A stretch of 61,707 nt of DNA from the NCBI RefSeq assembly GCF_015708085.1, contig NZ_JADNYM010000018.1:1-61707 (forward strand). The letters are read 5' to 3'. The notes under the pieces are model-generated. The model did no database searches. It saw only the letters and a program-made list of their open reading frames with translations, and was not told where the DNA came from. Shown one piece after another: positions 2,936-33,310 of the stretch (the first letter of the stretch is position 1; every line of letters starts with the position of its first letter). The DNA is from Arthrobacter terrae (GTDB lineage Bacteria > Actinomycetota > Actinomycetes > Actinomycetales > Micrococcaceae). A program made the position numbers and the translations under genes.

Positions 2936-2963
2936 TCCGGCCAGGGCCGGCCAGAGGGCCGGG

Positions 2964-3335
2964 CTACCAGCCGAGGGCCTGTGCGCGGCGGCGGATTTCT
3001 GTCTTGCGGCCCTCCCGCAGAGCGTCCACCGGCCGGCCGGGCAGGGAATCATCTTCGGTGAACAACCAGGCGATTGCTTCCTCATCGCTGAATGCCGCAT
3101 CGCCAAGGACCACAAGAGTGCCTTTAAGGCTGTCCAGAATCTTGCCGTCCATAAAAAAGGCTGCAGGCACGGAGCGGATTTTACGCTCCCCGATCCGCAG
3201 GGCGAGCAGCGCGCGACCCTCCAGAAGGCTGTGAACCTTGGTGACCGAAACACCTAGAAGCTCGCTGACATCGGGCAAGGGCAACCATTCACTGACAAGA
3301 TTCTCCACGTTATTCACCCGGTAAGCCTGCCACAC
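2964..3335 (-). CDS. Rv2175c-family DNA-binding protein (wHTH)
   Basis: Up to 123 aa from GTG 3335; GTG 3317 is an equally plausible start. The N-terminal half (EWLPLPDVSELLGVSVTKVHSLLEG) is a winged helix-turn-helix of the MerR/excisionase type. The C-terminal half (GTLVVLGDAAFSDEEAIAWLFTEDDSLPGRPVDAL...RAQALGW) is the conserved Rv2175c C-terminal domain. In M. tuberculosis Rv2175c is phosphorylated by the Ser/Thr kinase PknL encoded beside it, which changes its DNA binding. Here a PASTA kinase is encoded 1.8 kb away. The gene is convergent with the prenyl synthase, with only 28 GC-rich bases between them. Confidence 0.88.
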   Translation of the reverse strand: MWQAYRVNNVENLVSEWLPLPDVSELLGVSVTKVHSLLEGRALLALRIGERKIRSVPAAFFMDGKILDSLKGTLVVLGDAAFSDEEAIAWLFTEDDSLPGRPVDALREGRKTEIRRRAQALGW

Positions 3336-3617
3336 CTTGTAGCCGCCGTCCTACTCCCAGCATCAGCTCGCTCCGACGCTTGCCGACTTCGCACAACACC
3401 CCGTCCGCCTAAAACGTTGCGACACTCCAGGCAAGCAGGCTAATGGATTTTGTAAATGACTGTGCTATGGAAATTCTCGTGTAAATTCACATGAGTCACA
3501 TGAGTCACATACGTCACAGGATTAACATTTGTTGTCTTTGGGTACTCTGCATCATGACTAACAACGGCAGTACAAAAAACACCGGTATCACCCCATCTAC
3601 GTTGAGGAATTATCTCC
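3336..3617 (+). promoter_or_regulatory. Upstream region with three phased GTCACA direct repeats (candidate MtrA-type site)
   Basis: The 282 bases between the divergent Rv2175c-type gene and the LysM/transglycosylase gene are AT-richer than their surroundings. GTCACA occurs at 3495-3500, 3504-3509 and 3513-3518, a strict 9-bp spacing, about 100 bp before the ATG at 3618. Tandem GTCACA-like repeats are the type of target described for the actinobacterial response regulator MtrA, whose regulon includes peptidoglycan hydrolases. Assigning this site to MtrA is inference. No clear -35/-10 pair stands out, and I see no c-di-AMP (ydaO) aptamer. Confidence 0.45.
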
Positions 3618-4997: not shown

Positions 4998-5031
4998 TAC
5001 CTACCTTTGGCCGGATGTTGCCGCCATAAAC

Positions 5032-5071
5032 GAACAGGGCCGGAACGAGTGTTGTTCGCGGCCCTGTTCCT
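5032..5071 (+). terminator. Rho-independent-like terminator after the LysM/SLT gene
   Basis: A perfect 11-bp stem (GAACAGGGCCG at 5032-5042 with CGGCCCTGTTC at 5059-5069) and a 16-base loop lie 35 bases after the stop of the transglycosylase gene and just before the kinase GTG at 5093. The following run is short (CCTTTG), so termination may be partial. Confidence 0.65.
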
Positions 5072-5092
5072 TTGAGCGCCTAGGATCGAAGG

Positions 5093-7237
5093 GTGCAAGA
5101 ACTTTCGGTAGACCCATTGGTAGGGACCACGGTTGGGGAGCGCTACCTCGTTCTGTCGAAGGTGGCGCGCGGCGGCATGTCCACCGTCTACCTGGCAACG
5201 GACCTGCGTCTGGACCGCAACGTCGCCCTGAAGGTCCTGCACCCGCATCTGGCCACAGACAATAGTTTTCTCGATCGGCTGGGCCGGGAGGCCAAGGCGG
5301 CGGCGCGTCTGTCGCATCCGCATGTGGTTGGAATGTTTGACACCGGCAATGACGGCCCGCTGGCCTACCTGGTGATGGAATACATTCCCGGCCACACCTT
5401 GCGGGATGTGCTTAACGAGCGCGGGGCGCTCCCGCCGCGGCTCGCGCTGGCTTACCTGGACGCCGTCGTGGAGGGCCTTGGGGCTGCCCACGCCGCGGAC
5501 CTTGTCCATCGGGATATCAAGCCCGAAAACGTGCTCATTGCCGACGACGGCCGCATCAAGGTCGGCGACTTCGGTCTGGCCCGAGCTGTGACGACGACGA
5601 CGAACACGGGAATGCTGATCGGGACCGTCGGGTACCTCTCACCAGAACTCGTCGATGGCGCTCCGGCGGACGCGCGCAGCGACATCTATTCCATTGGCAT
5701 CATGCTTTTCGAGCTGTTGACCGGACACCAACCATTCCGCGGCGAGCTGCCGGTCCGAGTGGCCCTGCAGCATCTAACGACTCCCGTCCCCGCACCTTCG
5801 ACCGAGTTGCCGGGGCTGTCTGCAGACCTCGATGAGCTGGTCCGCTGCTGCACCGAGAAAGACCCGGAGTCCAGACCCGCGGACGGCTACGCACTGCTGG
5901 AAGACCTGCGCCACATCCGAACGACGCTCAGCGACGCGGAATTAGATTTCCAAGCTCCCTCTCACATCGCCGGGACCCCGGAAACAGGGACGCCGGAAAC
6001 GGGGGCACCGTGGGGACGCACAGGGAACGGCCGGACCGAGGTCGTGCACTTGGCTACTGAGGCAATCCGCACCGAGGCGCAGCAGACCGTGCTGATCGAC
6101 AACTCTCTGTTACCGGATGACAGAACCCAGCAGACCAAAATGATGGGACGTATACATCACACGACGGTACTACCGGCGGGGAGCAACCCGGCAGCCCGGC
6201 AGGGATATGCCGGACCGCTCTCCCCACCCGAAGAACCAGCCCCGGTTCTGCGACCCAGCCGGCGCGAGGCTAAACGTGCGGTCCGCAGCGCGGAGCACGC
6301 CCGGATTCGAGCGGCCGAACATCCCCTGCAGACTCTGCGCCGCGGCCGGCCCCGCCGCCGTTTCCTGATCTGGCTGATCGTGCTGCTGGTGCTGGCGCTG
6401 CTCGGCGGCGGTGCAGGCTGGTTTTTCGGCCTCGGTCCCGGCGCACTGGCAGCCGTCCCGAACGTCCAGGACAAAACGGTGGCACAGGCCCAGGCATTGC
6501 TGCAGGATCAGGGTTTCGGTTCCATGAGCAAAGACGTCAATGATGAGACCGTGCAACAGGGCCTGGTGGTGACGAGCGACCCAGAGCCGGGGACGCAGCG
6601 ACGTCGGTTTCTCCCGGTAACCCTGCTGGTTTCCAAGGGGCCGGTCCTGTACACGGTTCCAGCCGTAACCGGCGGTACTCTGGACGCCGCAAAGACGGCG
6701 CTGAACAACGCCAAGCTCGCCCTGGGCAACGTCACCGGACAATATGACGAAGAAAGGGCCGCTGGCGTTGTCCTAAGTCAGAGCCCGACGTCGAACACGC
6801 AGCAGCGCGGGACCACGCCCGTGGACCTAACCGTCTCCAAGGGCCCGACGCCTATCCCGGTGCCCAACGTGGTCGGTAAGGACAAGGACGCTGCGCGTAA
6901 GGCCATGAATGACGTTGGACTCGTCCCGCAGCTGGCGCCGGATACGGTCTTCGACAAACAAGTTCCCGCCGGTTCCGTAGTCTCGCAGGATCCGGCCAGC
7001 GGGACGCTGTCCAAGGGTTCTGCGGTTACGCTGACCGTTTCCAAGGGCCCCAAGCTGATCACCGTCCCCAGCTTCATCGGCAAGCAGGTGGACAAGGCGG
7101 TCCAGGAACTCCAGCAGCTCGGTTTTCAGGTCAAGGTCAACAATATTCTGGGCGGGTTTTTCGGCACCGTTCGTGACCAGAACCCGGTCAACAAGGATGT
7201 GCCCGAAGGATCCGTCATTATTTTGACCGTAGTCTGA
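5093..7237 (+). CDS. PknB-type serine/threonine protein kinase with four PASTA domains
   Basis: 714 aa. Kinase domain residues 1-280: glycine loop VARGGMSTVYLA, catalytic Lys47 (VALKVLHP), catalytic loop HRDIKPEN with Asp141, DFG at 159-161, and GTVGYLSPE in place of APE. A juxtamembrane region rich in Arg leads to one transmembrane helix at about 423-445 (FLIWLIVLLVLALLGGG). Four extracellular PASTA repeats follow, beginning VPNVQDKTV, VPAVTGGTL, VPNVVGKDK and VPSFIGKQV; the last ends the protein. PASTA kinases sense muropeptides or lipid II and control growth, division and, through GarA/OdhI, 2-oxoglutarate metabolism. The gene occupies the position of pknL in mycobacteria but has PASTA repeats like PknB. 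Start is GTG 5093 with AAGGG just upstream; the family N-terminus begins directly at the kinase fold. Confidence 0.93.
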   Translation: MQELSVDPLVGTTVGERYLVLSKVARGGMSTVYLATDLRLDRNVALKVLHPHLATDNSFLDRLGREAKAAARLSHPHVVGMFDTGNDGPLAYLVMEYIPGHTLRDVLNERGALPPRLALAYLDAVVEGLGAAHAADLVHRDIKPENVLIADDGRIKVGDFGLARAVTTTTNTGMLIGTVGYLSPELVDGAPADARSDIYSIGIMLFELLTGHQPFRGELPVRVALQHLTTPVPAPSTELPGLSADLDELVRCCTEKDPESRPADGYALLEDLRHIRTTLSDAELDFQAPSHIAGTPETGTPETGAPWGRTGNGRTEVVHLATEAIRTEAQQTVLIDNSLLPDDRTQQTKMMGRIHHTTVLPAGSNPAARQGYAGPLSPPEEPAPVLRPSRREAKRAVRSAEHARIRAAEHPLQTLRRGRPRRRFLIWLIVLLVLALLGGGAGWFFGLGPGALAAVPNVQDKTVAQAQALLQDQGFGSMSKDVNDETVQQGLVVTSDPEPGTQRRRFLPVTLLVSKGPVLYTVPAVTGGTLDAAKTALNNAKLALGNVTGQYDEERAAGVVLSQSPTSNTQQRGTTPVDLTVSKGPTPIPVPNVVGKDKDAARKAMNDVGLVPQLAPDTVFDKQVPAGSVVSQDPASGTLSKGSAVTLTVSKGPKLITVPSFIGKQVDKAVQELQQLGFQVKVNNILGGFFGTVRDQNPVNKDVPEGSVIILTVV

Positions 7238-7273
7238 CCCCGGTACCGAAATCTGGAGCAACCCTTGGAGCGA

Positions 7274-8740
7274 CTAGGACCGGTTGGACAGGGCTCCAGC
7301 AACCAGGAATGCCATTTCCAGGGACTGCTTATGATTTAGCCGCGGGTCGCAGACCGACTCGTAGCCCTCCAGGAAGGCTTCCTGATCGATGGGATCAGCA
7401 CCGCCCAGACATTCAGCAACGTCGTCGCCCGTCATCTCCACGTGCAGGCCGCCGGGGAATGTTCCGAGCGACTTGTGCACCTCGAAAAAACCCCTGACTT
7501 CGTCGATGACATCATCGAAGTTGCGCGTCTTGTACCCGTTGGGGGACGTGACGGTGTTCCCGTGCATGGGATCCGTGACCCAGAGGACCTGAGCCCCGGA
7601 GTCCGTGACCTTCCGGACCAGCTGAGGCAGTTTCTCGCGGATATTCCGTGCACCCATCCGCGTAATGAAGGTCAAACGGCCCGGTTCCCGGTCCGGATCG
7701 AGCTTATCGATCAACCGCAATGCGTCCTCCCCCGTGGTGCCCGGGCCCAATTTGACGCCGATGGGGTTACGGACGCGGGAGAGAAAGTCGATGTGGGCCT
7801 GATCCAGTTCACGGGTCCGCTCGCCGATCCACAGAAAATGTCCCGAAGTGTCGTAAGGCAGGCCCGTGCGGGAGTCGATGCGCGTCAGTGCCCGTTCATA
7901 ATCCAGCAGCAGCGCCTCGTGGCTGGCGAAGAATTCGACTCGTTTGAGCGCTTCGAAGTCCGCTCCGCAGGAGGCCATGAACTTGATGGCCCGGTCAATG
8001 TCCTTCGCCAGGGACTCATAGCGCGCATGGGCGGGATTCTGCGTGAAGCCACGGTTCCACTGGTGCACCAGGCGCAGGTCGGCGAAGCCGCCCTGCGTGA
8101 AGGCACGTATCAGGTTCAGCGTGGAAGCGGAGGTGTGGTACGCCTTGAGCATTCTGGAGGCGTCGTGCGCGCGTGACTGAGGGGTGAATTCGAACCCATT
8201 GACGATGTCTCCACGGAAGGCCGGAAGGGTAACGCCGTCGCGCGTTTCATCATTGGACGAACGCGGTTTGGCGAACTGTCCCGCCATCCGCCCCATTTTG
8301 ATGACCGGCATGGAAGCGCCATAGGTGAGCACCACAGCCATCTGCAGAATTGTTTTTACCCTGGCGCTGATTTTGTCCGCGGTGGCACCTGCGAAGGTTT
8401 CCGCGCAGTCTCCCCCCTGCAGCAGGAAGGCCTTCCCTTGGGCAGCCAAGGCCAAGCGATCACGCAGGTCGTCCACTTCACCGGCAAATACCAGTGGCGG
8501 CAGCATCGACAGTTCCTTGACCGAGGACTCATAGACGGACACATCCGACCAGACCGGTTGCTGGGAAATCGGCAGTTTCCGCCAATCGTCCAGACCAGGG
8601 TAAGCGACGGCGCCTCCGGTGGCAGCGCCGGGCACGGGGGCCGCGGCAGCCGCGGAGACAGCGCCGGGCGCGGGGGCAGCCGTAGGGGCGGCAGCGAAGT
8701 CTGGCGGGAGGATCGGAGCAGGTGTTGAAAGATCAGTCAC
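7274..8740 (-). CDS. aroG: Class II 3-deoxy-7-phosphoheptulonate synthase (DAHP synthase)
   Basis: 488 aa. It condenses phosphoenolpyruvate and erythrose 4-phosphate in the first step of the shikimate pathway, in the cytoplasm. Class II signatures include LLQGGDCAETFAG with the metal-binding Cys112, the KMGRMAGQFAKPRS stretch, LWIGERTRELDQAHIDFLSRVRNP, KLGPGTT, and VTDPMHGNTV near the C-terminus. A 45-residue Ala/Pro-rich N-terminal leader (residues 5-48) is longer than in most homologues. The start is GTG 8740. The gene is convergent with the kinase (36 bases apart), the same pairing as pknL/aroG in M. tuberculosis. Confidence 0.95.
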   Translation of the reverse strand: MTDLSTPAPILPPDFAAAPTAAPAPGAVSAAAAAPVPGAATGGAVAYPGLDDWRKLPISQQPVWSDVSVYESSVKELSMLPPLVFAGEVDDLRDRLALAAQGKAFLLQGGDCAETFAGATADKISARVKTILQMAVVLTYGASMPVIKMGRMAGQFAKPRSSNDETRDGVTLPAFRGDIVNGFEFTPQSRAHDASRMLKAYHTSASTLNLIRAFTQGGFADLRLVHQWNRGFTQNPAHARYESLAKDIDRAIKFMASCGADFEALKRVEFFASHEALLLDYERALTRIDSRTGLPYDTSGHFLWIGERTRELDQAHIDFLSRVRNPIGVKLGPGTTGEDALRLIDKLDPDREPGRLTFITRMGARNIREKLPQLVRKVTDSGAQVLWVTDPMHGNTVTSPNGYKTRNFDDVIDEVRGFFEVHKSLGTFPGGLHVEMTGDDVAECLGGADPIDQEAFLEGYESVCDPRLNHKQSLEMAFLVAGALSNRS

Positions 8741-8849
8741 AGCTTTAGCCTAGTTGCTTTTGCCGCCTCCGGCTGTGGCCGCGGTCATGACGAGTCCGCC
8801 GCCGTCATATAGCGAAGTCAGCACGGCACCAACCGTAGGCAGCGATTGC

Positions 8850-9962
8850 CTACGGTTTAGTGTTTTTCCTGCCACCGGTGCGTTCCCTCGGGACCGTCGC
8901 CTCCGCGGGCCCGACACCGGAGGCCGGTGATCCGTGGGCTGCCACTGTGCTGGTCGAACCCGCCCCGGAGTTATGGTCGGTGCCGTCGGATGGGCCGGCG
9001 GGGCTTGTGTCGTCAAAGTGCTCACCTTCCGGGAGAAGGATCGCCTCTGCGACGTCCGGGGGAACCGCAACTATCACTTCCGGTCTATCGCCGGAATGCA
9101 ATCTGTCTGCCGCTGACCTACCCGGCCCGGCTTCCGCTGCGGCAGCGGGGGCCACACCTGCTGCCGCGGCGGAGGCGGTTCCGCCAATTACAGTGACGGC
9201 ACCCGGCTTGATGTTGTTTTCCGCCGCCGCCAGCCGCACGGCCGCAGCTGCCTTTGGGTTCGCAGCTTCCTTACCGGCCTTTCTAGCGGCCAGCTTCTCC
9301 TTGACGGTGCTGGCGTAGGCGTCCACATATTCCTGACCGGACAGCCGCATGAGCTCATACATTATTTCGTCCGTGACCGAGCGCTGTACAAATCTGTCGT
9401 TCCCCAGGCCCTGATACCGGCTGAAGTCCAAGGGTTCGCCAAAAATCACGCCAATCCGCCGGATATTCGGGATCCTGCGGCCAATCGGCTGCACCTTATC
9501 GGTACCAATCATGGCCACGGGAATTACCGGAACACCGGCGCTGAGCACCAGTTTGGCAACACCGACTTTGCCCCGGTATAGCTTCCCGTCGGGGCTTCGC
9601 GTGCCTTCCGGATAGATCCCCAGCAGTCCGCCATGGTTCAGAATCTGCCGACCGGACTCCAGGGAATTCGCCGATGCCGCACCGCCGGAACGGTCCATCG
9701 GCAACTGATTGGTCAGCCTAAAGAAAGCAGCCGTGAGCTTACCCTTGATGCCTTTGCCCGTGAAGTACTCGGATTTCGCCAGGAAGACGACCGGCCTGGG
9801 AACCATTAACGGCATGAAAATCGAGTCGGAAAAGGACAGATGATTGCTCGCCAAGACGGCGGCGCCGTCCGCTGGAATGTTATCCAGCCCCTTGATCCAG
9901 GGACGGAACAGCAGCTTCAGGACGGGGCCTATGAAGATCCGCTTCATTATCCAATAGAACAC
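8850..9962 (-). CDS. 1-acyl-sn-glycerol-3-phosphate acyltransferase (PlsC-like) with disordered tail
   Basis: 370 aa from GTG 9962; GTG 9989 is an alternative. The acyltransferase core has the catalytic NHLSFSD box (His41, Asp46), then FLAKSEYF and the substrate motif YPEGTRSPDG. It should acylate lysophosphatidate or a related lipid at the inner membrane face. The start at 9962 gives MFYWIMKRIFIGP, matching the usual N-terminus of Rv2182c-type proteins, and is preceded by AAGGGAA. After about residue 230 the protein has an extra 140-residue tail rich in Ala, Gly, Ser and Pro that is not part of the fold. It lies next to aroG as in M. tuberculosis. Confidence 0.88.
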   Translation of the reverse strand: MFYWIMKRIFIGPVLKLLFRPWIKGLDNIPADGAAVLASNHLSFSDSIFMPLMVPRPVVFLAKSEYFTGKGIKGKLTAAFFRLTNQLPMDRSGGAASANSLESGRQILNHGGLLGIYPEGTRSPDGKLYRGKVGVAKLVLSAGVPVIPVAMIGTDKVQPIGRRIPNIRRIGVIFGEPLDFSRYQGLGNDRFVQRSVTDEIMYELMRLSGQEYVDAYASTVKEKLAARKAGKEAANPKAAAAVRLAAAENNIKPGAVTVIGGTASAAAAGVAPAAAAEAGPGRSAADRLHSGDRPEVIVAVPPDVAEAILLPEGEHFDDTSPAGPSDGTDHNSGAGSTSTVAAHGSPASGVGPAEATVPRERTGGRKNTKP

Positions 9963-10168
9963 GCAGTGTTTCCCTTCTGGTGTCTTCACACACGGGACAC
10001 ACCCGATGCTGCTTTTTCGCCCTGCACTTTTGCTAAGACGTTACTCTAATGAGAGTACGGCCAGTAAGTCCCCGCTAGTGAGAAAACCGCCAAGGAGTGG
10101 CACGATTGCCCTATGATCTTCACAAATCCCGCCCGGGACGTTGAAATCCTGAGCGGATACCGTCGGCA

Positions 10169-10906
10169 ATGACATTTTCCAGCAGCGGCCACGGGCCCAT
10201 GGCCAGGGTCGGGGTTGCACTGAGCCATGGCTTTACCGGTTCCCCGGTGAGCATACAGGGCTGGGCGGAATATCTGGCTGCCCAGGGATTCGCCGTCAGC
10301 CTTCCCTTACTGTCGGGCCACGGTACCAGCTGGCAGGAGCTCGCCCGCACCCCTTGGATCCGGTGGTATCAGGATTTCGAGCGGGCGTATCTGGAACTGA
10401 CGGAACGTTGCGACGTAGTCTTCACCGCCGGATTGTCCATGGGCGGTGCACTGGCGTTGCGGGTAGCAGAACATCACGGCGTAGCCGGGGTCGCCGTCGT
10501 CAACCCCGGTCTGACCTTTTCGGACAAGCGGGCACGCTATTCGCGATTTCTCAAATATGTGCTCAAAAGCGTCCCCGCGATCGGCGACGACATTAAGCTC
10601 GCAGGAGTCAGTGAGGGTGCCTACCAGAGGACACCAGTTGCGGCCGTCCAACAGCTGGCAGGACTTTTCAAGGACACTGTTGCAGGGCTGGACCGGGTCA
10701 AAGCGCCAACGATCGTGTTCCGTTCCGCCGTGGACAGAGTAGTGCCGGAGAGCAGCATGGAGGTCCTTGCACACGGGATCGGCAGCACTGATTTCGAGGT
10801 CGTCCGGCTGGAGAACAGTTACCATGTGGCCACCATGGACAACGATGCGGCGCTGATTTTTGAGCGTTCCGCAGCATTCTTCCGGGAGCACTCCGGTGGT
10901 CAGTAA
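10169..10906 (+). CDS. Alpha/beta hydrolase, monoacylglycerol-lipase/carboxylesterase type
   Basis: 245 aa. The oxyanion region is HGFTGSPVSIQGWAEYL. The nucleophile elbow is TAGLSMGGALAL with Ser90, the acid is probably Asp in SAVDRVVP (about 190), and the catalytic His is in NSYHVATMD (about 222). This arrangement is that of Est30-like carboxylesterases and bacterial monoacylglycerol lipases. Neighbouring PlsC and acyl-CoA ligase genes suggest a role in lipid turnover (inference). The ATG overlaps the stop of a 19-codon upstream reading frame (10113-10172), which could couple its translation. The next gene starts before this one ends. Confidence 0.87.
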   Translation: MTFSSSGHGPMARVGVALSHGFTGSPVSIQGWAEYLAAQGFAVSLPLLSGHGTSWQELARTPWIRWYQDFERAYLELTERCDVVFTAGLSMGGALALRVAEHHGVAGVAVVNPGLTFSDKRARYSRFLKYVLKSVPAIGDDIKLAGVSEGAYQRTPVAAVQQLAGLFKDTVAGLDRVKAPTIVFRSAVDRVVPESSMEVLAHGIGSTDFEVVRLENSYHVATMDNDAALIFERSAAFFREHSGGQ

Positions 10907-11480
10907 ACCAGAGCAGGATCCATCCGAAACCAATGCCAACGATGACGACGACGCGATCTGGCGGGATCTGGTGGCGCGTTTGGAAGGCCCATCGGCGGCG
11001 GGTTACTCCCTCGATGGATTCGATGAGCCCTCATCCCCGGCCGGGGCCGGCATTGATTCCGACAGTGCTGCACCGATCGGGAAGCCTACGTCTTTTGACG
11101 ATTTTGACCCCTTGGGTATCTCCCGAGCGCCGCACTCGAGCCCTCGGGGCAACGGAGCGGACGAGGATACCGGGCCCGCTCCCGGTACGGGCCCGCCCGG
11201 GCCACGGGACTACGCGGCGGAAGTTCCCTGGCCGGACGGTGATGACTTCGTACCTGAAGATCCGCCGCCGCTGTCCGCCGTCGAGCCGGCCCTGATGCTC
11301 GCCTGGACGGGGGCTGTGGGTGGCCCTATCGCGCTGCTGTTCACCGCCCTCTTGTGGCGGGGCGCGCCGCTGACGGCCATCCTCGCCATGATTGCGGCCT
11401 TCGTCGTCTCAGCGGGTTACCTGATGTTTCGGTTGCCTGCACAGCGGGACGACGACGGCGACGACGGCGCGGTGGTCTGA
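10896..11480 (+). CDS. Hypothetical membrane protein with acidic disordered N-terminus
   Basis: 194 aa. The first 125 residues are polar, Asp- and Pro-rich and predicted disordered (for example ETNANDDDDAIWRDLVARLEG). Two C-terminal hydrophobic helices follow (ALMLAWTGAVGGPIALLFTALLW and LTAILAMIAAFVVSAGYLMF), then an acidic tail. It looks like a hairpin membrane protein with both ends in the cytoplasm. The GTG start at 10896 lies inside the end of the hydrolase gene and is preceded by GGGAG, so the two form an operon. I do not recognise a family with known function. Confidence 0.75.
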   Translation: MVSKPEQDPSETNANDDDDAIWRDLVARLEGPSAAGYSLDGFDEPSSPAGAGIDSDSAAPIGKPTSFDDFDPLGISRAPHSSPRGNGADEDTGPAPGTGPPGPRDYAAEVPWPDGDDFVPEDPPPLSAVEPALMLAWTGAVGGPIALLFTALLWRGAPLTAILAMIAAFVVSAGYLMFRLPAQRDDDGDDGAVV

Positions 11481-11503
11481 GCCGGCCCCGCTGCTGATGA
11501 TGC

Positions 11504-12646
11504 TCAGGGCCGCGAACGGCTGCTGACCCGGGACAGATCGGCGGCACCGATCATTCCTGCCCCTGGCCCCAGCGCAGCCAAGCTGATGGGCGCCGCCGGA
11601 CGGAAACCACGGCCGGTCAGATTCCTCGCAAACGACCGGCGGGCCGGTGCCAGGAGCATCTCCCCCGCCTCGCAGAGGCCCCCGCCGATGACGAATAGGC
11701 CCGGGTCCAGGGCTGCGGCCAGATTCGCCAGGCCAAGGCCGAGCCACTCACCGACCTCCTCCACCAATTCACGGCAGGCCGCGTCCCCGGCCAGGGCCAG
11801 CTCTGTGACCACGGTTCCGGTAATCGCATCCACGTCGCCGTCGACACGACGCAGCAGCTCCTGCGCCACCGGGGACTTTGCCCGCGCCAGTTCGCGGGCT
11901 TCGCGCCCGAGTGCATTCCCGGAGGCGTACTGTTCCCAGCATCCACGGTTTCCGCACTCGCAACGGTGGCCCTGCGGCATAATCACCTGGTGCCCGAATT
12001 CGCCGGCAAGCCCAAAACGGCCGCGTTCCAGTCTGGAGTCCATCACCATGGCACCGCCGATTCCGGTGCCCAAAGTGACGCAGACCAGCCTGCTTTGTCC
12101 ACGGCCGGCACCGAAACGCCATTCTGCCCATCCGGCAGCGTCGGCATCGTTGCTGAGCACCACGGGTCGTCGGAGCAGCCTCTCCAGGTTTGCCCGTAAC
12201 GGCTCGTTGCGCCACGCCAAGTGGGGGCTGAAGAGCACCGTACTTGAGCTCAGGTCCATCCAGCCGGCGGCCCCGATCCCCACTGACAGCACGCGGTGCC
12301 CGGCGGAGAGCTCTTGGACGAGTTCCACAATGGTTGCCTCAACGGCCCGCGGATCATTTCCAGGGGTCAGCCGGCGACGTTGATCCAGGACCACTCCCCG
12401 CGGGTCGACCACCCCTGCCGCAACTTTCGTGCCGCCGATGTCAATACCAATCGCCAGACCGCGGCGGCCCAAGCGCTGGGGGAACCGTTCCGCTCGTCGT
12501 TCCCGACCGCGTGGAACAGCCACCGGGACACGCCGGTGCCAGCTCGACTTCAGCGCGGACGTACCGGTCCCGCCAAGCGCGGCAACGTTTTCGGGCACCG
12601 GAACAGCTTTGGACTCACGGGGCAGATATTCAACCATCACGGCCAT
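11504..12646 (-). CDS. ROK-family sugar kinase (glucokinase-like)
   Basis: 380 aa. The ATP-binding motif is LAIGIDIGGTKVAAGVVD (starting near residue 65). A catalytic Asp lies in VLSNDADAAGWAEW, GTGIGGAMVMD follows, and the ROK zinc site is HRCECGNRGCWEQYASG. It should phosphorylate glucose or a related hexose in the cytoplasm. An unusual 60-residue Arg-rich N-terminal extension precedes the fold; a start at the second ATG (12637) is possible but does not remove it. No DNA-binding HTH is visible, so it is a kinase rather than a NagC/Mlc-type repressor. Convergent with the membrane protein gene and divergent from fadD. Confidence 0.88.
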   Translation of the reverse strand: MAVMVEYLPRESKAVPVPENVAALGGTGTSALKSSWHRRVPVAVPRGRERRAERFPQRLGRRGLAIGIDIGGTKVAAGVVDPRGVVLDQRRRLTPGNDPRAVEATIVELVQELSAGHRVLSVGIGAAGWMDLSSSTVLFSPHLAWRNEPLRANLERLLRRPVVLSNDADAAGWAEWRFGAGRGQSRLVCVTLGTGIGGAMVMDSRLERGRFGLAGEFGHQVIMPQGHRCECGNRGCWEQYASGNALGREARELARAKSPVAQELLRRVDGDVDAITGTVVTELALAGDAACRELVEEVGEWLGLGLANLAAALDPGLFVIGGGLCEAGEMLLAPARRSFARNLTGRGFRPAAPISLAALGPGAGMIGAADLSRVSSRSRP

Positions 12647-12853
12647 TCTAGTGTCCGCATGCCGGCGCTGTTTGCCTTGGCTTTGCCCCGCAGCTCAACG
12701 GCCTAAGGGCCCGGGCAGACGCCGCTCGGCTTGGAAAACCCGGCAAGCCGCCATAAAGTTACTGACGAGTAACAATTCGTGGCCCAGCCGGCACGTGCTG
12801 CCGGATAGAGTAAGGGCAAACCCCAGTGGTCCTCAGGCATCGAAGGAGCTACA

Positions 12854-14665
12854 GTGCGAGAATTTTCCGTTGCGGCAGTGGTCGACGTTCCCCGGAACAC
12901 CAACACCACGGACTTGGTCCTGCGGCAGGCCAACAAGGCATCCAACCCGGCTCTCTTTGCCCGGCTGGACGCGCAGAAGCACTGGGTGGACATCACCGCG
13001 ACGGCGTTCCGCGACGATGTGAGCGCTCTGGCTAAGGGGCTTATGGCCTTCGGTATCAACGCCGGAGACCGGGTGGGAATCATGGCCCGGACGCGATATG
13101 AATGGTCCCTGGTGGACTTCGCCATTTGGTTTGCCGGCGCAGTCTCGGTACCCATCTATGAAACCTCCTCCCCCAGCCAGGTGGCATGGAATCTTGGGGA
13201 CTCCGGCGCGGTCGCGGTCTTCGCCGAGACCGCCCATCATGAAAACATGGTCCGGCAGGCAGTAACCGCTGAATCCCTCACTGCCCTGGCCCATGTCTGG
13301 CGACTGGAGGGCGCCGGGCTGGACGAACTGCGCACCGCCGGTCGGGACATTCCAGATGCCCAGCTGGAGGAGCGCCGTACCTCCAGCGGACTCAGTGACC
13401 TCGCCACCATCATCTACACCTCCGGTACAACAGGCCGTCCCAAGGGCTGCGAACTGACGCACGGAAACTTCGTGGAACTCTCGGACAACGCTTTGGGCGT
13501 GCTCTCCGACGTTGTTCCGGAAGGTTCCCAGACCATCATGTTCCTTCCTCTGGCCCACGTTTTCGCGCGTTTCATCTCCGTGCTGGCCGTGGCAGCCGGT
13601 GCCAAGGTGGCGCACACTCCTGACATCAAAAACCTCCTTTCGGACCTGCAGAGCTTCCAGCCGACGTTTATCCTGGCCGTGCCGCGGGTGTTCGAGAAAA
13701 TTTACAACTCGGCTGCGCTCAAGGCCGAATCCGAGGGGAAAGGCAAGATCTTCGCCCGGGCCGCGGACACCGCCATCGCGTACTCCCGTGCCAGGCAAAA
13801 TGGGAGCGTGCCATTCCTGCTCAAGGTTTCGCATGCGGTCTTTGACAGGTTGGTCTATGTGAAGCTCCGCACGGCCATGGGCGGACACATCAAGCACGCT
13901 GTTTCCGGCGGCGGACCCCTCGGTGAACGGCTGGGCCACTTCTTCCAGGGAATCGGTCTGCAGATCCTGGAAGGCTACGGCCTGACGGAAACCACAGCTC
14001 CCGTGACCGTGAACCACCCGGCGCTGATCAGGATCGGTACCGTCGGCGCGCCGCTGCCGGGGAATGCGGTGAAAATTGCCGACGACGGCGAAATCCTCGC
14101 CAAGGGTGTCAGCGTCATGCGCGGCTACTGGGGCCGGAATGACCTGACGGCGGAAGCGTTCGCCGACGGCTGGCTGCACACCGGCGACATTGGCGAACTC
14201 GATGCTGACGGTTTCCTGCGGATCACCGGGCGCAAAAAAGAAATCATTGTTACCGCCGGCGGCAAAAACGTGGTTCCGGCGATGCTGGAAGACCAGATAC
14301 GTGCCGATGCCCTGATTTCACAGTGTGTGGTGCTCGGGGACCAGCGCCCGTTCATTTCAGCTCTGGTAACGCTCGACGAAGAAGCGCTGCCCAAATGGGC
14401 CGCAGCCCACGGCCTCCCCGCCGGAATCAGCATGCAGAACGCAATTGTCCACGATACGGTCGTTGGTGCAGTCCAGCGAGCAGTGGACAAGGCCAATGAA
14501 TCCGTCTCACATGCCGAATCCATCAAGGCCTTTCGTATTGTGCCGACCGATTTTACCGAGTCCTCCGGGCATCTGACGCCGTCTATGAAAATTAAGCGGT
14601 CCCAGGTGCTCAAGGATTTCGACGCGCTGGTAGAGGAGATCTACGCCGCGAAGAAACCTGTTTAG
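12854..14665 (+). CDS. Long-chain fatty acid-CoA ligase (FadD15-like)
   Basis: 603 aa. AMP-forming acyl-CoA synthetase: the P-loop-like motif is IIYTSGTTGRPKGCELTH (about residue 183). The A5 motif is YGLTETTAPV (about 376), the DGWLHTGDIGELD hinge region is near 435, and the GRKKEIIVTAGGKNV motif is near 457. It activates long-chain fatty acids with ATP and CoA, probably at the membrane. Start is GTG 12854 with a good AAGGAG 7 bases upstream. The position after a ROK gene matches Rv2187 (fadD15) in M. tuberculosis. The 207-base gap to the divergent ROK gene must hold both promoters; no clear boxes seen. Confidence 0.93.
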   Translation: MREFSVAAVVDVPRNTNTTDLVLRQANKASNPALFARLDAQKHWVDITATAFRDDVSALAKGLMAFGINAGDRVGIMARTRYEWSLVDFAIWFAGAVSVPIYETSSPSQVAWNLGDSGAVAVFAETAHHENMVRQAVTAESLTALAHVWRLEGAGLDELRTAGRDIPDAQLEERRTSSGLSDLATIIYTSGTTGRPKGCELTHGNFVELSDNALGVLSDVVPEGSQTIMFLPLAHVFARFISVLAVAAGAKVAHTPDIKNLLSDLQSFQPTFILAVPRVFEKIYNSAALKAESEGKGKIFARAADTAIAYSRARQNGSVPFLLKVSHAVFDRLVYVKLRTAMGGHIKHAVSGGGPLGERLGHFFQGIGLQILEGYGLTETTAPVTVNHPALIRIGTVGAPLPGNAVKIADDGEILAKGVSVMRGYWGRNDLTAEAFADGWLHTGDIGELDADGFLRITGRKKEIIVTAGGKNVVPAMLEDQIRADALISQCVVLGDQRPFISALVTLDEEALPKWAAAHGLPAGISMQNAIVHDTVVGAVQRAVDKANESVSHAESIKAFRIVPTDFTESSGHLTPSMKIKRSQVLKDFDALVEEIYAAKKPV

Positions 14666-26079: not shown

Positions 26080-26115
26080 TGCCTGATGAAACTTTGAGCC
26101 TCATCAGGCATTTTT
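26080..26115 (+). terminator. Rho-independent terminator after the FMO gene
   Basis: TGCCTGATGA (26080-26089) and TCATCAGGCA (26101-26110) form a perfect 10-bp stem with an 11-base loop, followed directly by TTTTT. It abuts the left copy of the tRNA-derived direct repeat. Confidence 0.9.
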
Positions 26116-26160
26116 CTGTCGGGCTGACAGGATTTGAACCTGCGACCCCTTGACCCCCAG
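26113..26160. repeat. Left attachment repeat: displaced 3' part of tRNA-Pro(GGG)
   Basis: 48 bases identical to 33231-33278. They cover the 3' half of tRNA-Pro, from the anticodon loop through the T-arm and acceptor strand plus a few bases beyond. The match stops inside the anticodon loop (GCGTCC here against TCAAGT at the right copy). This is the mark left when an element integrates into a tRNA gene and restores its 3' end. Confidence 0.9.
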
Positions 26161-26340: not shown

Positions 26341-29300
26341 TTAGGAACTCGGACCGTGCTCCTGCATGTGTGCAACGCGGTCATCCGCATCCTCAAAATC
26401 GTCCTCGATGTCCGTGATGACAACGGCCGTGCCGTAGACGACCGCAGCATCGGCGCCAGGTTTAGCCGCTTGGTCGGCGTCGAGCATCAGCGGGCTTTGC
26501 AAGCTCGCGATCTCGTCCCATCCAGATCGCCCCTTCTCCGCCAAGTCCTTTGCGATAGACAGATCATCAGTGATCGCCGAGCCGATGACCGTCAGAATGT
26601 TGCTGAGCGTGGAAACATACTCGGTTCCAGCGTGAGCGGAGGTCAGTTCATCGAGTTGCGCTTTGAGGCCGACAAGGCGGTCCCACGATTCTTCAAGTAC
26701 CCGGCCTTTCTCGTCGGAGATCAGAGTGCTCCCGCGGACCGCGATGATCGCCGCGATCGACGAGAGACGACGAGCTTGCTGAAGATAGGCCCCATAGGGA
26801 CCGGAAATTGGTGTCGCAGCAATCGACCCTGCGAATGCGGAAGGCGCTCTGCGATCGCCAAGTGGGAGCGCCCCTTGATGTGCGACTTGGAAGATCGAGG
26901 CGGGCAAGTAACCGCCGGCTGAGCGCAGTCCAATCCATACGCGCCGGGCTGGCTGTTCAGCAGCATCTCGCGCGGCATCCGCGAGAGCCGCGAGAGCGTT
27001 CAGATGAGTGAGGACGCTCTCTCCTTCTACACTGATCGCTAGGTCTCCGGGCAGCCAACTCATCATCGTTTGGTCGGAGGAGCTTGGCACTACGGTGACG
27101 GCGTACCCCGAGTCAGCGAGTGCAAGTCGCATTTTTTCGGCCTCTTTCTGCAGGGCTGCGGAGGAGCGTTCGGTCGCGACGGTGGCTGCAGCGGCAACCC
27201 GAGCGGTTCCCGCGTGTCGCCCAGCAGCGGCTCGCATCGATACGCGGATTGATGCGTCCGATCCTGCGCTGGCGGACGCGACCATTCGCAATTGGCGGAG
27301 ACAGTCAAGTAGCTGAGCGCAATCCGGCGGGTTGGGCAGAAAGCGGTATCGGTCGAGTTCGATCAAGGCCCCGACCTTGGGGATGAGGCTGTCGAGCGTT
27401 CCGACTGTCGGGATGGGACGCCGCTCGACGACGTCTGCCTGTGCAAGGTTCGGAATGACCTGCTGGAGCAGCAGTCGCACGACAGTTACGGCATCGCTCT
27501 CGACGGGATAGTCACCGAGCGCGCCAGGCACTTCGTCCGTGTAGGCCTCATCTGTCGGAGAGTCCATCTTGGAAAGCAGCGCGTTCACCGATTCGAACCG
27601 ACGAACAGTAGCTTGTGACAGAGCCCGATCGCCGAGGTGGGCGATCGTGATTTCGGGGAGCAGGTCGATGATTGCCCCGAGCGCTTTAGCCTCAGCCGCA
27701 AGCTTGGAGGTCAGCGTGCCCGCCCCGTACTTACGGGACAAGGCTCGCGCCTGGGCTCTGTTTTCGGAGACTTCGAGCGCATGGGGCAGATTCTCCCGCG
27801 GGATCGCTTTGTCAACGAGCGGGTAGTCGCCCAGCTTTACCAAACGCCCCAGGGCATCGACCGCGCCTACTCTGGCGATCACCGCTGTCGGCGCAAGAGC
27901 GAGGGCCAGTCGGCAGACCTCAACGACAGCCTCGTTCTGGTTCGGTTGTATCTTCTCGTCGATGAAGATCCACCTGCCGTCCACCCCGTCGTCTACGCGT
28001 TCCAGCGAGGCTAGCCACGGTGTTTCTGTCGCGATCCTGCGCAGGAGGAGCTGCTCGCCGCCGGCTGTGATGACGGCGCGTTCCGCAAGTTCGGGCGCCG
28101 CGCGGCGCAACGCTTCCGTCATGTCGGCTGCGTCGCGCAGCGGCCATACTGTCAGGCGTGCGCCGATTGCGACCGCCGTGGACTCCAGGCCGGTGACATC
28201 AAAGCCGCGGAGTACCGTGATGGCCTGCAAAAGGAGTCGAGTTGCGTTATCGTCGGGGACCGCACTGCGGAGTCGCTCGACGGCTGCCACAATCTCGGGT
28301 TTGAAGAGCTGTTCTGTGTCGGGGCGTGGCTTTGTGCGGGACATCGTGAACGCAGTTACAGCGTTGCCAGCATCAACGTCACATTCATCGAGGATAAGCT
28401 TCCAGTCGTCGGCCCGCCGTCGCAGTCCATCGGCGCGGAATGCGGATGCGACTGCGATGAGCGTCTGGAGGGTGCGATCGCGTGTGATGCGCTCGGTTGC
28501 GGCCGGGATCATTACGGTCGGGTCAGCCCCGGACTCGAGTGCGCGTCGGAGGAATCGTGCGAGTTCGCCGCTGGTCACCAGTGGAACAAGGCGCTCAAGG
28601 GTCTCTTGCTGTCCGAAGGGGTGGGCTGCCCGGGCGAGTGCGGCGGAGCGGATATCGTGCAGCACTCGTATGAGATTGCCCGAGTCCTCAACGATGAGGT
28701 GCTCGTCGATGAGGCGGCGGCTGGCGGCGATGAATGCGCCGCGGTCGGCGTCCAGGGCGGTTTGGATCGCGTGCGCAGGTATGGCGACGCCGTATTGGTT
28801 GGCGCACGACGCCAGCCGCAGGATATCAAGCTCAAGGTGTCGACTCGGGTCCGCTTCGCGTGCGCGGACTTGCGCACTGACGACGGTGTCGAGATTCACG
28901 CCTTCGGTAAGCAGAGTGATGTACTCCAGTAGGAGGCTGCCTGCTCGCTCGGCTGGCTCCCGCCATCCAGCCCATTCGGTGAGATTGTCAGCCCGGTAGT
29001 CGCGCCAGAGTTGCTCTGCGAAGGTGTCGTCAAGCATGGGCGTTATCGTGGCGACGGTCGATAGTAGCGGGACAGGGAAGCGATCTTCCTCCCGGATCGA
29101 AACAATGGTGATCACATTCGACAGATCCGCGAGCCGTCTCAGCAGTCGATCGAGCAGATCCGGGTCGTGGCGCCCAGAGTCGTCGATGAGGACTCCCACC
29201 GGGGCATATGCACTCGGATGTAAAGACTCGATGCGTGCGGAGAGCAGCGCGACGGCATCACGTCCGGTGCGCCCCGTTGGTGTCAGCGAGTGAACCTGCT

Positions 29301-29691
29301 GCCAGCGATACAGCCTCCGGGTCTCGTACAAAGCTGCGTAGGCGAGTGCGCTCTTGCCACTGCCGCTAGGTCCGGCGATGACCGCCAGCCGCCGGGTCGC
29401 CGCGACTTCGATCACCTGCTGGGTGAGTTCAACACGGGGCACGAGCAATCCGGCAGCGACATGAGGAGCCCCCACATGCACGCCCTGACGTATGTCCGAG
29501 TCATCAGCAGGCGATCTCCAGTCGATTGCCTCGCAGATCCCTACCGACCTTGCCTCATCGAGCAACTCGAGGTCAACGGTCGCAAGGACCTGGTCATTGA
29601 GGACATCGATGCCTGCAATATCCACGGCTGCGCGACTCGCTACATCCGGGTCGGCATTGGCATCGCTAGCCTCTCCTACCTGGGTACACAC
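26341..29691 (-). CDS. Large P-loop NTPase, probable effector-control part of a defence protein
   Basis: 1116 aa from GTG 29691, but the frame is open further upstream and the real protein is probably fused to the nuclease encoded just before (see 29666-30202). Walker A is AGPSGSGKSALAYAAL (residues 106-121), Walker B is VGVLIDDSGRHD (165-176), and a likely sensor is VITIVSIREEDRFP (193-206). A winged-helix-like segment follows (about 250-350). The remaining 700 residues are mostly helical with no recognised domain, and a C-terminal part ends in acidic IEDDFEDADDRVAHMQ. The plan (nuclease, STAND-like ATPase, long helical sensor region) is that of antiphage proteins. No ribosome site precedes the GTG, which fits a frameshifted rather than separate gene. 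Function is inferred from domain plan and location. Confidence 0.75.
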   Translation of the reverse strand: MCTQVGEASDANADPDVASRAAVDIAGIDVLNDQVLATVDLELLDEARSVGICEAIDWRSPADDSDIRQGVHVGAPHVAAGLLVPRVELTQQVIEVAATRRLAVIAGPSGSGKSALAYAALYETRRLYRWQQVHSLTPTGRTGRDAVALLSARIESLHPSAYAPVGVLIDDSGRHDPDLLDRLLRRLADLSNVITIVSIREEDRFPVPLLSTVATITPMLDDTFAEQLWRDYRADNLTEWAGWREPAERAGSLLLEYITLLTEGVNLDTVVSAQVRAREADPSRHLELDILRLASCANQYGVAIPAHAIQTALDADRGAFIAASRRLIDEHLIVEDSGNLIRVLHDIRSAALARAAHPFGQQETLERLVPLVTSGELARFLRRALESGADPTVMIPAATERITRDRTLQTLIAVASAFRADGLRRRADDWKLILDECDVDAGNAVTAFTMSRTKPRPDTEQLFKPEIVAAVERLRSAVPDDNATRLLLQAITVLRGFDVTGLESTAVAIGARLTVWPLRDAADMTEALRRAAPELAERAVITAGGEQLLLRRIATETPWLASLERVDDGVDGRWIFIDEKIQPNQNEAVVEVCRLALALAPTAVIARVGAVDALGRLVKLGDYPLVDKAIPRENLPHALEVSENRAQARALSRKYGAGTLTSKLAAEAKALGAIIDLLPEITIAHLGDRALSQATVRRFESVNALLSKMDSPTDEAYTDEVPGALGDYPVESDAVTVVRLLLQQVIPNLAQADVVERRPIPTVGTLDSLIPKVGALIELDRYRFLPNPPDCAQLLDCLRQLRMVASASAGSDASIRVSMRAAAGRHAGTARVAAAATVATERSSAALQKEAEKMRLALADSGYAVTVVPSSSDQTMMSWLPGDLAISVEGESVLTHLNALAALADAARDAAEQPARRVWIGLRSAGGYLPASIFQVAHQGALPLGDRRAPSAFAGSIAATPISGPYGAYLQQARRLSSIAAIIAVRGSTLISDEKGRVLEESWDRLVGLKAQLDELTSAHAGTEYVSTLSNILTVIGSAITDDLSIAKDLAEKGRSGWDEIASLQSPLMLDADQAAKPGADAAVVYGTAVVITDIEDDFEDADDRVAHMQEHGPSS

Positions 29692-30202
29692 GGCCGCTGG
29701 AGGCAGGCTGTGCGGCCACGCTCCCCCACTCGGGTACTGGAATTCGGGCGACCGGGCGCTCTAGCAAGAGGATTGTCGCGGCTGAGAGTCCGGCGTCCCT
29801 GCGCTTCACCCAAGCCTTCGCGACGGAACGCAAGTCCCTTCGCAGGTCTGTAGCCTCGAAATCGCCCACGCTCTCGCGTCGCGACTTGACCTGGATGAAT
29901 AATGACCCGCTCGACGACTGCACCGAAATGTCGTCGTACCCTTCCGGTGTCACCACCGCTGTCGCGTCACCTTCGCTCCACAGACTCAATACAACGAGCG
30001 TGGCGACCAGATTCTGAAAACGAAAACCTCGCCCCGCGCGCGCACCGGCTCGAGATGCGACCCACAACGCAGCCTGTGGCTCCGTAGGCAAAGACGCTGG
30101 GCTGGGAGATGGCAAAGTCTCCCTTTGCTTACCGCGGCGTTCTTGCGCGGCACGCCGTCGGCGCGCTTCGGCTGTCGTGCCCTCTGAGTCTCGACGGGTC
30201 AT
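29666..30202 (-). CDS. PD-(D/E)xK-like nuclease domain (DUF4297/Cap4-type), truncated by frameshift
   Basis: 178 aa. After a basic, disordered N-terminus it reads GRGFRFQNLVATLVVL (58-73), VVTPEGYDDISVQ (83-95) and LFIQVKSRRE (101-110). This GF.FQ ... PE..DDI ... QVK pattern is the N-terminal nuclease signature of Cap4/DUF4297-type defence proteins, with Asp91 and Gln104-x-Lys106 as the likely catalytic set. ILLLERPVARIPVPEWG follows and then the frame runs to a stop through unconserved text. Removing one G from the G5 run at 29723-29727 continues the frame directly into the NTPase and gives one protein of about 1286 aa. Family membership is read from motifs only. Confidence 0.7.
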   Translation of the reverse strand: MTRRDSEGTTAEARRRRAAQERRGKQRETLPSPSPASLPTEPQAALWVASRAGARAGRGFRFQNLVATLVVLSLWSEGDATAVVTPEGYDDISVQSSSGSLFIQVKSRRESVGDFEATDLRRDLRSVAKAWVKRRDAGLSAATILLLERPVARIPVPEWGSVAAQPASSGRVYPGRRG

Positions 30203-30386: not shown

Positions 30387-31316
30387 TCACCAAGGGCTTT
30401 CTCCCGGTTCGAAAGTGGGCACTTTCCATAACCCGGTTCGCGGGTCCCATGACAGGTTGGTGGCGCTCTCAGAAAGGATCGGTTCGGTAAGTGCAAAACA
30501 TGTGTCGAGAAGCTCACCAAAGCGGACGGGCGTCGTCCCTTCGAGCCGTTGCTTCCGTCGCCAGACCTCCCACTTGCGTTGCGCGAGGTCGGGCATGTTT
30601 GCGATCAATGGACCAAGCGGTTCGATCTCGACTTGGCGGTAGCGCGCAACGGTGTCCATCGCCGAACGCAGGTCCGTGCCGCGAATTCTCCGGGTGCGGG
30701 CAATGGCCGCGATGTCGGTGAAGTCGCGCCACCGGGTGTTCTGCTCACCTCGTTCGATCGCGGTGACGATCTTCTCGGCAAGCACCATGTGGTCGGGATA
30801 TCCCCTCAATCGAAGTGTTCCGCCGAGCAGGAGTGGGAGCACCGCTTCGGTTGGGGCCGGCCAGATCGGATCGCCAAAGTTCACGTCGACGTGCAGAGCT
30901 ACTCGCGCTGTCGCGAGTTGCGCCGTGACCTTGACGCGGACGCCGTTGTAGTCGGCGTCGTCCCGGATCGGCTCCCCCACAGCGGAGTCCGGATCAAACT
31001 CCAACCCATCGTCGAGATGCACCTCGATGATGCTGCGCACCCGTTGCTCGACATCGGCGGTGTCGTTGGCGAATCCAGTCGCTGCGAAGTCGATGTCGCG
31101 GGTCGGTCGGCGCGCAGCGAATGCTGCCATGAGCACACCACCCTTGAGCACGAACTTTCCAGCGTGCTCAGAGACGGCCAACCGGGCGAGAAAACCTTCG
31201 AGCGCGTACAAGGTGATGTACTCGGCAGGATCGCGTCCATCGCGGCGAGCGAGGTTGCGCAGATCGTTGTATGCCTGCCCGGCAGGCGTGTCTCGTGTCG
31301 GTATTGGCGGAGTCAT
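30387..31316 (-). CDS. AbiEii/AbiGii-family nucleotidyltransferase toxin
   Basis: 309 aa from ATG 31316. Nucleotidyltransferase fold: FVLKGGVLMAAFAARRPTRDIDFAATG (about residues 55-81) contains the KGG and RDID motifs of the family. A conserved RGYPDHMVLAEKIVTAIERGEQNTRWRDFTDI region follows (about 195-225). AbiEii is the toxin of type IV toxin-antitoxin / abortive infection systems; the related MenT toxins add nucleotides to tRNA. The ATG overlaps the antitoxin stop (ATGA), the normal AbiE arrangement. An upstream in-frame ATG at 31580 would run through the antitoxin gene and is rejected. Confidence 0.88.
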   Translation of the reverse strand: MTPPIPTRDTPAGQAYNDLRNLARRDGRDPAEYITLYALEGFLARLAVSEHAGKFVLKGGVLMAAFAARRPTRDIDFAATGFANDTADVEQRVRSIIEVHLDDGLEFDPDSAVGEPIRDDADYNGVRVKVTAQLATARVALHVDVNFGDPIWPAPTEAVLPLLLGGTLRLRGYPDHMVLAEKIVTAIERGEQNTRWRDFTDIAAIARTRRIRGTDLRSAMDTVARYRQVEIEPLGPLIANMPDLAQRKWEVWRRKQRLEGTTPVRFGELLDTCFALTEPILSESATNLSWDPRTGLWKVPTFEPGESPW

Positions 31317-31891
31317 AGGAGCGCCTCGAGCGCCTGGCGGATCCGCGGCTGTGCCTTCGGGAACGATGATGCAACCTTCAACAGGGCTGCCGGCGAGTTC
31401 CCTCGGCGACGCAACCACCGTCGGAGTGCTTCGTAGGCGACGTCGCTGCCTTCCTGATGCATGAGCCGGAAGCAGTCCACGATCGTTCTCTCGGCCGAGT
31501 AGGCGGCAAGCGTTAATCCATTTCCGGCATCGATGTGGTCGCGTCCGACGTGGAAGGTCGTCGGGTCGAAGCTGTGCCATGCAACGTGAGCGAGTCCAAC
31601 GGGATGATGGGTGCCTCGCGGGAGGGCGATATCAGACTCGAACGGGATGGCGTCGCTCAGGTCGTGGTGTACGAGCGCACTAGTCAGACACAACGTCGCC
31701 TCTTCACGCACAGCCGTTGCTGCGGCGAGCGAGGCGAAGGCGGGCTCGATCCTGTCAGGACGCAGATATACGCCGCGGCCTACGCGTTCGATCTCCCCGT
31801 TCGCGAGAAGGTCGTAAACCTGGTCTTTCCGCAGGCCTGCGTGGCGAGCGTCGCCGAGCGTGAACACTGGTGCGAGATCTGCTACCAACAC
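31313..31891 (-). CDS. AbiEi-family antitoxin / transcriptional regulator
   Basis: 192 aa from GTG 31891, chosen because GGGAGG lies 5 bases upstream; GTG 31897 is the alternative. The N-terminal winged helix reads FTLGDARHAGLRKDQVYDLLANGEIERVGRGVYLRPD. The C-terminal AbiEi domain includes ALVHHDLSDAIPF, LPRGTHHPVGLAHVAWHSF and ERTIVDCFRLMHQEGSDVAYEALRRWL. It should repress its own promoter and neutralise the downstream toxin. The pair is divergent from the integrase pseudogene across about 70 bases. Confidence 0.88.
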   Translation of the reverse strand: MLVADLAPVFTLGDARHAGLRKDQVYDLLANGEIERVGRGVYLRPDRIEPAFASLAAATAVREEATLCLTSALVHHDLSDAIPFESDIALPRGTHHPVGLAHVAWHSFDPTTFHVGRDHIDAGNGLTLAAYSAERTIVDCFRLMHQEGSDVAYEALRRWLRRRGNSPAALLKVASSFPKAQPRIRQALEALL

Positions 31892-31963
31892 GTTCACCTC
31901 CCAACTCTCTACACATGAAGGCTATCTGTAATGAGTTAGGAAGACAACGAGGAGGCTCAAAGG

Positions 31964-33108
31964 ATGAAAAGTCCCCTTGCCCTCATCCCTCCTGTCGGAG
32001 TCCGCATCAACACCGACACCTTGCCCCGCGGAGAACGTATTCGCGCACGAGCGAGGTGGACTGACCCGATGTCAGGTTTTCGCAAAAGTCGATCGTTCAC
32101 CGTTGACAGCGAACCGTCCGCACGCGAGTTCTTCAGCGCGTTGGGGACCCACGTCGGCGCGGACCTCGACCCGTTCATCACGCTGACGGGCTGCGCAGAT
32201 CGGATCGGAGATCGGTTCCTCCGGGGAGTGGATATGACCTCCACTGCCTCCGGATACCGGGCGGGTCTTTGGCTCCGAGTCCTACCGGCGCTCGGGCGTC
32301 TACGCATTCGGGACATCACGGCCGGGATCGTGGACCGAAGCATCGACCGCTGGGAGGTCGAGCACTCCCGCTCGACGCTGAAGAACACGATCGCTGCACT
32401 CACACGAGTTCTCGACGAGGCCGTTCGCGACGAAATCATCATCCGAAATCCGGTGAGAGACCGAGCTCATCGGCGGAATCGGACGCGGGAGGCACCGCAA
32501 CTTTAAATACGCATTCCTTCACTCACCGGTGTCAAACTGATCGCTGCCGCATGCGCCGAGGCCCACCAGAGCTACGACGACCACGTCATGCTCAGCGAGT
32601 TTCTTGCGGCGCGCACTTCAGAAGTGGCCGGGCTCATTGTTGGCGACATCGATTGGACGAACAGGATCGTCACGATCGAACGCCAGTGCTTCCCCGGTGC
32701 TGGTGGCCTGAGCACCAAACCTCCGAGGGTCATCGAGCACGCCGCGTACCGATCATTGAGCCACTCGAGCCACTGCTGCGCAGGCTCACGATGCGACGCG
32801 CGCGCAACCTGCCGCTGTTGCGCGGGCCTCGCGGCGGCGTCATTACGAGTGCAGCGTTGCGAAATGCAACCGACTGGGACGCACTGGTTGCATCGCTGGG
32901 GTTGCCGGGGTTGCGTCGTCGCGATCTCCGCTATGCGGGTGCAACCTGGTTCGCAAATGCGGGCGTCCCGATTCACGTCGTGAGCGACATCCTTGGACAC
33001 GCGTCCGTCGAGACGACGCGGGCGTACCTACACACTGACAACACAACGCTGCAGAACGCGGCAGTACGAATTAACGAACACCTGCTGGAGGCCACGATGG
33101 ACAGCTAG
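31964..33108 (+). pseudogene. Tyrosine recombinase (phage-type integrase), inactivated
   Basis: Pieces of one integrase of about 381 aa. The N-terminal part (31964-32506) has an AP2-like/SAM-like core-binding region (TASGYRAGLWLRVLPALGRLRIRDIT) and ends at an in-frame TAA (32504-32506). The same frame continues with GVKLIAAACAEAHQSYDDHV and box I (EFLAARTSEVAGLIVGDIDW). At about 32717-32720 one A is missing from an A run and the reading continues in another frame: TSEGHRARRVPIIEPL, RRDLRYAGATWFANAGVPIH, ILGHASVETTRAYLHTD with the catalytic Tyr. The box II His of the H-x-x-R motif is Arg (RDLR). Nonsense codon, frameshift and active-site change together indicate a dead gene. A GAGGAGG and AAAGG lie upstream of the ATG. 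Confidence 0.9.

Positions 33109-33230: not shown

Positions 33231-33310
<80 letters not shown>

Follow-up and report, generated by a model that had tools for sequence, protein, structure and literature searches.

A split gene in the 61,707-nucleotide stretch of Arthrobacter terrae DNA analysed here (the window) is, in our judgement with high confidence, a deletion pseudogene whose intact form encodes an Avs-like protein of nuclease–STAND type, and it rides as cargo on a decaying mobile element at a tRNA-Pro gene. This reading is based on comparison with intact relatives, in which the two reading frames of the window form one, and on the borders of the element itself.

One gene in two reading frames

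Both pieces of the gene lie on the reverse strand. The 5' piece, at 29666..30202 (-), encodes 178 aa and is recognized as the nuclease part by its Cap4_nuclease match and its alignment to a Microbacterium hominis protein; it carries the motifs GFRFQ, TPEGYDDI and QVKSR, as had been noted before. Approximately its first 170 residues align to the intact gene and the last few are out-of-frame residues. The 3' piece, at 26341..29691 (-), encodes 1116 aa from a GTG, with the GPSGSGKS motif, and comprises the STAND-like NTPase, matched by nSTAND1, together with the C-terminal half. As described in the original prediction, this frame is open upstream of its GTG, namely for 23 further codons (open frame of 1139 aa), and we found no stop in it outside the break. 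The G5 run to which the split had been attributed is likewise present, at 29723..29727 (-).

The frames are not a product of chance, since the Pfam cut-offs are passed and close full-length relatives exist. Cap4_nuclease (PF14130) matched the 5' piece with 33.7 bits (cut-off 26.2), and nSTAND1 matched the 3' piece with 27.9 bits, narrowly passing its cut-off of 27.1; in the intact M. hominis protein nSTAND1 scored 23.1, which is under the cut-off. Of the 200 positions of the Cap4 model, 1-69 are matched by the window piece and no more than 1-71 by the M. hominis protein, although the latter is intact, and the end of the domain is therefore not marked by the model. We also aligned nine family members, including a truncated Arthrobacter copy, of which four matched PF14130 at E 0.01 (five did not) and seven matched nSTAND_NTPase5 at the same threshold. 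Residues P88, E89, G90, D93, Q106 and K108 are invariant in all nine and present in the window piece, and the D...QxK residues among them are presumably the catalytic core of the Cap4 nuclease. The P-loop residues G341, G343, K344 and S345 are invariant in all nine members as well. In a profile search against the PDB, the nuclease core was matched by the solved LmuA 9ux7 (3.4e-4) and by 'Anti-bacteriophage protein A' (4.8e-4), and many P-loops were matched, while the C-terminal part gave two chance-level matches (E 0.06 and 0.09). NCBIfam contributed a single weak match, in one member. The predicted order, with a STAND-like NTPase after a Cap4/DUF4297-type nuclease in one protein, is thus supported, and the gene lies in the mobile, defence-rich setting described below; the C-terminal half is without a domain match.

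Intact homologues were found. The sole relative from a scan of genome contigs is that of M. hominis NBRC 15708, in which one open frame of 1372 aa shows 82% amino acid identity to the 178-aa piece and 86% to the 1116-aa piece; a second genome, G130, carries a single frame that is 97% identical to the M. hominis protein at the amino acid level. A search of 395 genomes from the taxonomic family of the window's host gave matches in nine at E 0.001 (the host's own genome included, two of the matches being very weak), 9 of 72,556 plasmid records matched as well, and an order-level search, in which 62 genomes matched, added further copies. No match was found in the phage records searched, nor any relative among 600 pattern stretches of viral contigs.

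We read 15 copies, counting G307 and the Arthrobacter plasmid copy once. This count leaves aside 59 of the 62 order genomes, which matched part of the NTPase only (E 2e-7 to 1e-3), as well as G366, G316, G808 and three further Agrobacterium records. Eleven copies are single full-length frames, located in the genomes of M. hominis, G130, G409, G341, G332, G743 and G746 and on plasmids of Marinovum (where the frame is open further up than annotated), Ruegeria, Agrobacterium and Caulobacter. The other four are broken or truncated: the window copy, the G191 copy (L066 3250-10369), which is in several pieces, changes frame and contains two transposase-like genes, a Sphingopyxis plasmid copy that ends before an IS21, and the Arthrobacter plasmid copy, which is short of the C-terminal part and is then followed by an IS21. 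With 11 of 15 copies in a single full-length frame and the remaining four damaged, the two frames of the window descend from one ancestral gene, as originally proposed. Among the matches outside the count, G808 (L069) encodes a distant 1319-aa frame with a related NTPase and an N-terminal part of its own, of QLK type.

The same comparison makes it improbable that the window holds a functional two-gene system, in which a short nuclease protein would work with a separate NTPase started at GTG 29691. Such an arrangement would fit the fact that both frames are open and conserved, and HerA-DUF4297 is a known two-component nuclease/ATPase system (PMC11291478). However, the short frame is without the approximately 59 residues that homologues hold between nuclease core and NTPase, and separate frames occur in only G191 among the other 14 copies read, that copy being broken itself; moreover, the original prediction saw no ribosome site at the GTG.

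Deletions at the break

A whole-gene DNA alignment of the intact M. hominis gene with the window showed 3329 of 3862 aligned bases to be identical (86.2%) and revealed three gaps, each of them on the window side and measuring 6, 176 and 75 bp, respectively. The G130 gene (3322 of 3859 bases identical) gave the same three gaps, and here a further gap, of 3 bases, falls in G130 where the gene ends. Relative to both genes, the frame-breaking junction of the 176-bp deletion lies at 29699..29700 (-). This gap starts 23 bases past the G5, its length is not a multiple of three, and the stretch that was lost is the region between the nuclease core and the NTPase. The second deletion, of 75 bp and in frame, has its junction at 28264..28265 (-) in the alignments to M. 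hominis and G130.

All seven distant homologues that we aligned hold residues of the 59 lost with the 176-bp stretch (41, 53, 57, 58, 59, 59 and 59, respectively), and it was therefore the window that lost sequence and not M. hominis that gained it. Conservation across the family is lower for the second lost stretch than for the first, 18 of its 25 columns being occupied in at least five of the seven distant homologues in the family alignment. For the 1116-aa frame, dN/dS against the two relatives was 0.17-0.26, compared to 0.28 between the two intact genes. Given these values and the lack of any stop outside the break, the break should be recent on that scale, or part of the gene may still be translated.

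There is very little chance that the deletions are artefacts, that is, collapses in the assembly. The genome is indeed a draft of 63 contigs with a listed contamination of 3.86, but the two deletions differ in size, homologous sequence resumes directly after each of them in the M. hominis alignment, and the adjoining integrase carries two further lesions of other kinds.

The cause first suggested for the split, a one-base change in the G5 (by sequencing error, phase variation or mutation) that would divide an otherwise normal gene, is barely credible when the run is compared between genes. At the G5 the two frames do differ by one register, yet the run has the same length in the window, in M. 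hominis (L002) and in G130 (L003/L060), the window is without 176 bp against both intact genes, and the difference in register simply follows from how long the deletion is. Nor is the joined frame of approximately 1286 aa the native protein, the intact relative being 1372 aa long. Programmed ribosomal frameshifting, which would make a fused protein from the two frames, has an equally slight probability: even though the G191 homologue also changes frame in the nuclease–NTPase linker, the breaks are unlike (the window lost 176 bp, whereas the frame change in G191 is small and no homopolymer run is visible there), the G191 copy also holds the two transposase-like genes, RNA structure at the window junction was not above chance (z 0.61), and 11 of the 15 copies read as one frame straight across this place. 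Of the options originally listed for the split, a disabling mutation thus stands, while a one-base error, homopolymer phase variation and frameshifting are unsupported, since two intact genes have the same G5 and what breaks the frame is the loss of 176 bp. We consider phase variation or programmed frameshifting very unlikely.

A decaying element at tRNA-Pro

The deletion pseudogene lies in an integrated mobile element, as is evident from an integrase, from flanking repeats that include the 3' end of a tRNA gene, and from an empty site in a related genome. The left 48-bp attachment repeat, at 26113..26160, is an exact copy of the right one at 33231..33278, which overlaps the 3' part of a tRNA-Pro (GGG) gene at 33236..33310 (-), the integration site. 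Measured from repeat to repeat, the element spans 7118 bp and contains the broken gene, an AbiE-type pair and the integrase. In the same-genus genome G001 both flanks adjoin a single repeat copy, which constitutes the empty site. It was seen in this one of four same-genus genomes, the gene flanking the left repeat not being matched in the other three (G002, G003 and G004), and none of the four (G001-G004) carries the nuclease–STAND gene.

The tyrosine integrase, at 31964..33108 (+), is a remnant when compared to an intact 439-aa frame in G152. It is interrupted by an in-frame TAA (32504-32506) and by a frameshift near 32716-32719, and an Arg stands where the comparison with G152 leads one to expect the His of the HxxR motif, which we take to be the integrase active-site motif. 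A search of plasmids with the integrase DNA found nothing. The AbiE-type pair is near full-length. Its AbiEii-type toxin, at 30387..31580 (-), matched PF08843 (1.5e-31) and the PADLOC AbiEii model (1.4e-80, model positions 11-284 of 294), the frame comprising 397 aa from its first ATG and the Pfam match beginning at residue 130; the AbiEi-type antitoxin, at 31313..31897 (-), matched PF13338 (6.6e-9) and PADLOC AbiEi (4.8e-50, positions 18-194 of 198).

The M. hominis and G130 copies are also located near a tRNA-Pro (GGG). On the M. hominis locus (L002) the repeat occurs three times, at 888-935, 6940-6987 and 14318-14360, and in G130 the repeat was found at the tRNA alone within the 19 kb fetched. 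Between tRNA-Pro 3'-end repeats, the L002 region 768-14360 contains an AlbA_2 protein, a protein with an LmuA/Avs2-like N-terminal part and a CHAT (BovA-like) protein, and it is likely to be a stack of defence-bearing elements. The genes found around other copies include SIR2-like, GT4-conflict, type I restriction, AbiE, CHAT and relaxase genes. The tRNA-Pro site seems to be one at which cargo of this sort accumulates. The intact copy of G409 directly follows a DUF7380/DUF4209 gene (L063 5997-7862). When eight neighbourhoods were compared for a conserved partner gene, and with G341 and G332 set aside as a sister pair, the neighbours in common were an integrase in M. hominis and G130 and a weakly matching pair in G743 and G191 (24%, 6.6e-6); this comparison was partial, as frames were chosen by length and some likely genes, such as the CHAT gene of L002, were dropped.

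Relation to known defence systems

In STAND proteins a central NTPase lies between an effector at the N-terminus and a sensor at the C-terminus, and the effectors of Avs1-4 are nucleases (PMC12931631). The three-part plan given there for Avs (AVAST) Avs1-Avs4, with an N-terminal nuclease effector, a central STAND NTPase and a long C-terminal part, is shared by the family studied here. In contrast to these systems, no PADLOC Avs model matched any of the nine members at E 0.01, and the window copy is broken. At the genome level, the Avs2 model was matched at E 0.001 in none of three family-holding genomes (the window's included) versus 2 of 14 control genomes. An Avs-like role is nevertheless likely by analogy, even though no known Avs model was matched.

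The nuclease core also resembles that of the Lamassu protein LmuA, a Cap4/DUF4297 nuclease; the PADLOC LmuA model matched the M. hominis protein (3.8e-8) and the window piece (8.7e-9). In Lamassu, however, the nuclease is a separate subunit beside the SMC-like LmuB, whereas the nuclease of the present family shares one polypeptide with a STAND NTPase. The DUF4297 nuclease of HerA-DUF4297 is presumably of the Cap4 kind as well. That nuclease, too, works with an ATPase, but the system consists of two proteins and uses the HerA ATPase (PMC11291478), compared to one protein with a STAND NTPase here. Within PADLOC-DB 2.0.0 no model covers the whole nuclease–STAND family, and the part of the literature that we covered held no description of it.

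We envisage the following scheme, which extends the deletion pseudogene reading by analogy with Avs. The intact gene encodes one protein of approximately 1270-1390 aa, in which a Cap4-type PD-(D/E)xK nuclease at the N-terminus precedes a STAND-type NTPase; the C-terminal half that comes next is long and probably senses the invader. Once this half had bound an invader signal, the NTPase would be switched, upon which the protein might cluster and its nuclease become activated, and the active nuclease could then cut DNA and abort the infection, an antiphage function that we propose from the likeness to Avs. In the window, the 176-bp deletion took out the stretch that links nuclease core and NTPase and thereby changed the frame, a further 75 bp were lost in frame, and the 7.1-kb element at tRNA-Pro carries this broken gene along with an integrase that is broken as well.

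Given that the host of the window belongs to the Micrococcaceae, the copy in M. hominis (Microbacteriaceae) would imply transfer between families. More tentatively, and with rather less than even confidence, we suggest that the intact gene represents an Avs-like family in its own right, encoded by a single gene (Cap4 nuclease, STAND NTPase and a C-terminal half without assignment), that travels between Actinomycetota and Alphaproteobacteria by way of plasmids and tRNA-Pro elements and is repeatedly broken (in 4 of the 15 copies), as if its upkeep were costly. For the A. terrae gene, the likely cause of the split is settled as deletion, not phase variation or recoding, which makes the G5 run the wrong place to look; the copies worth testing are those that are intact, for example the M. 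hominis protein of 1372 aa.
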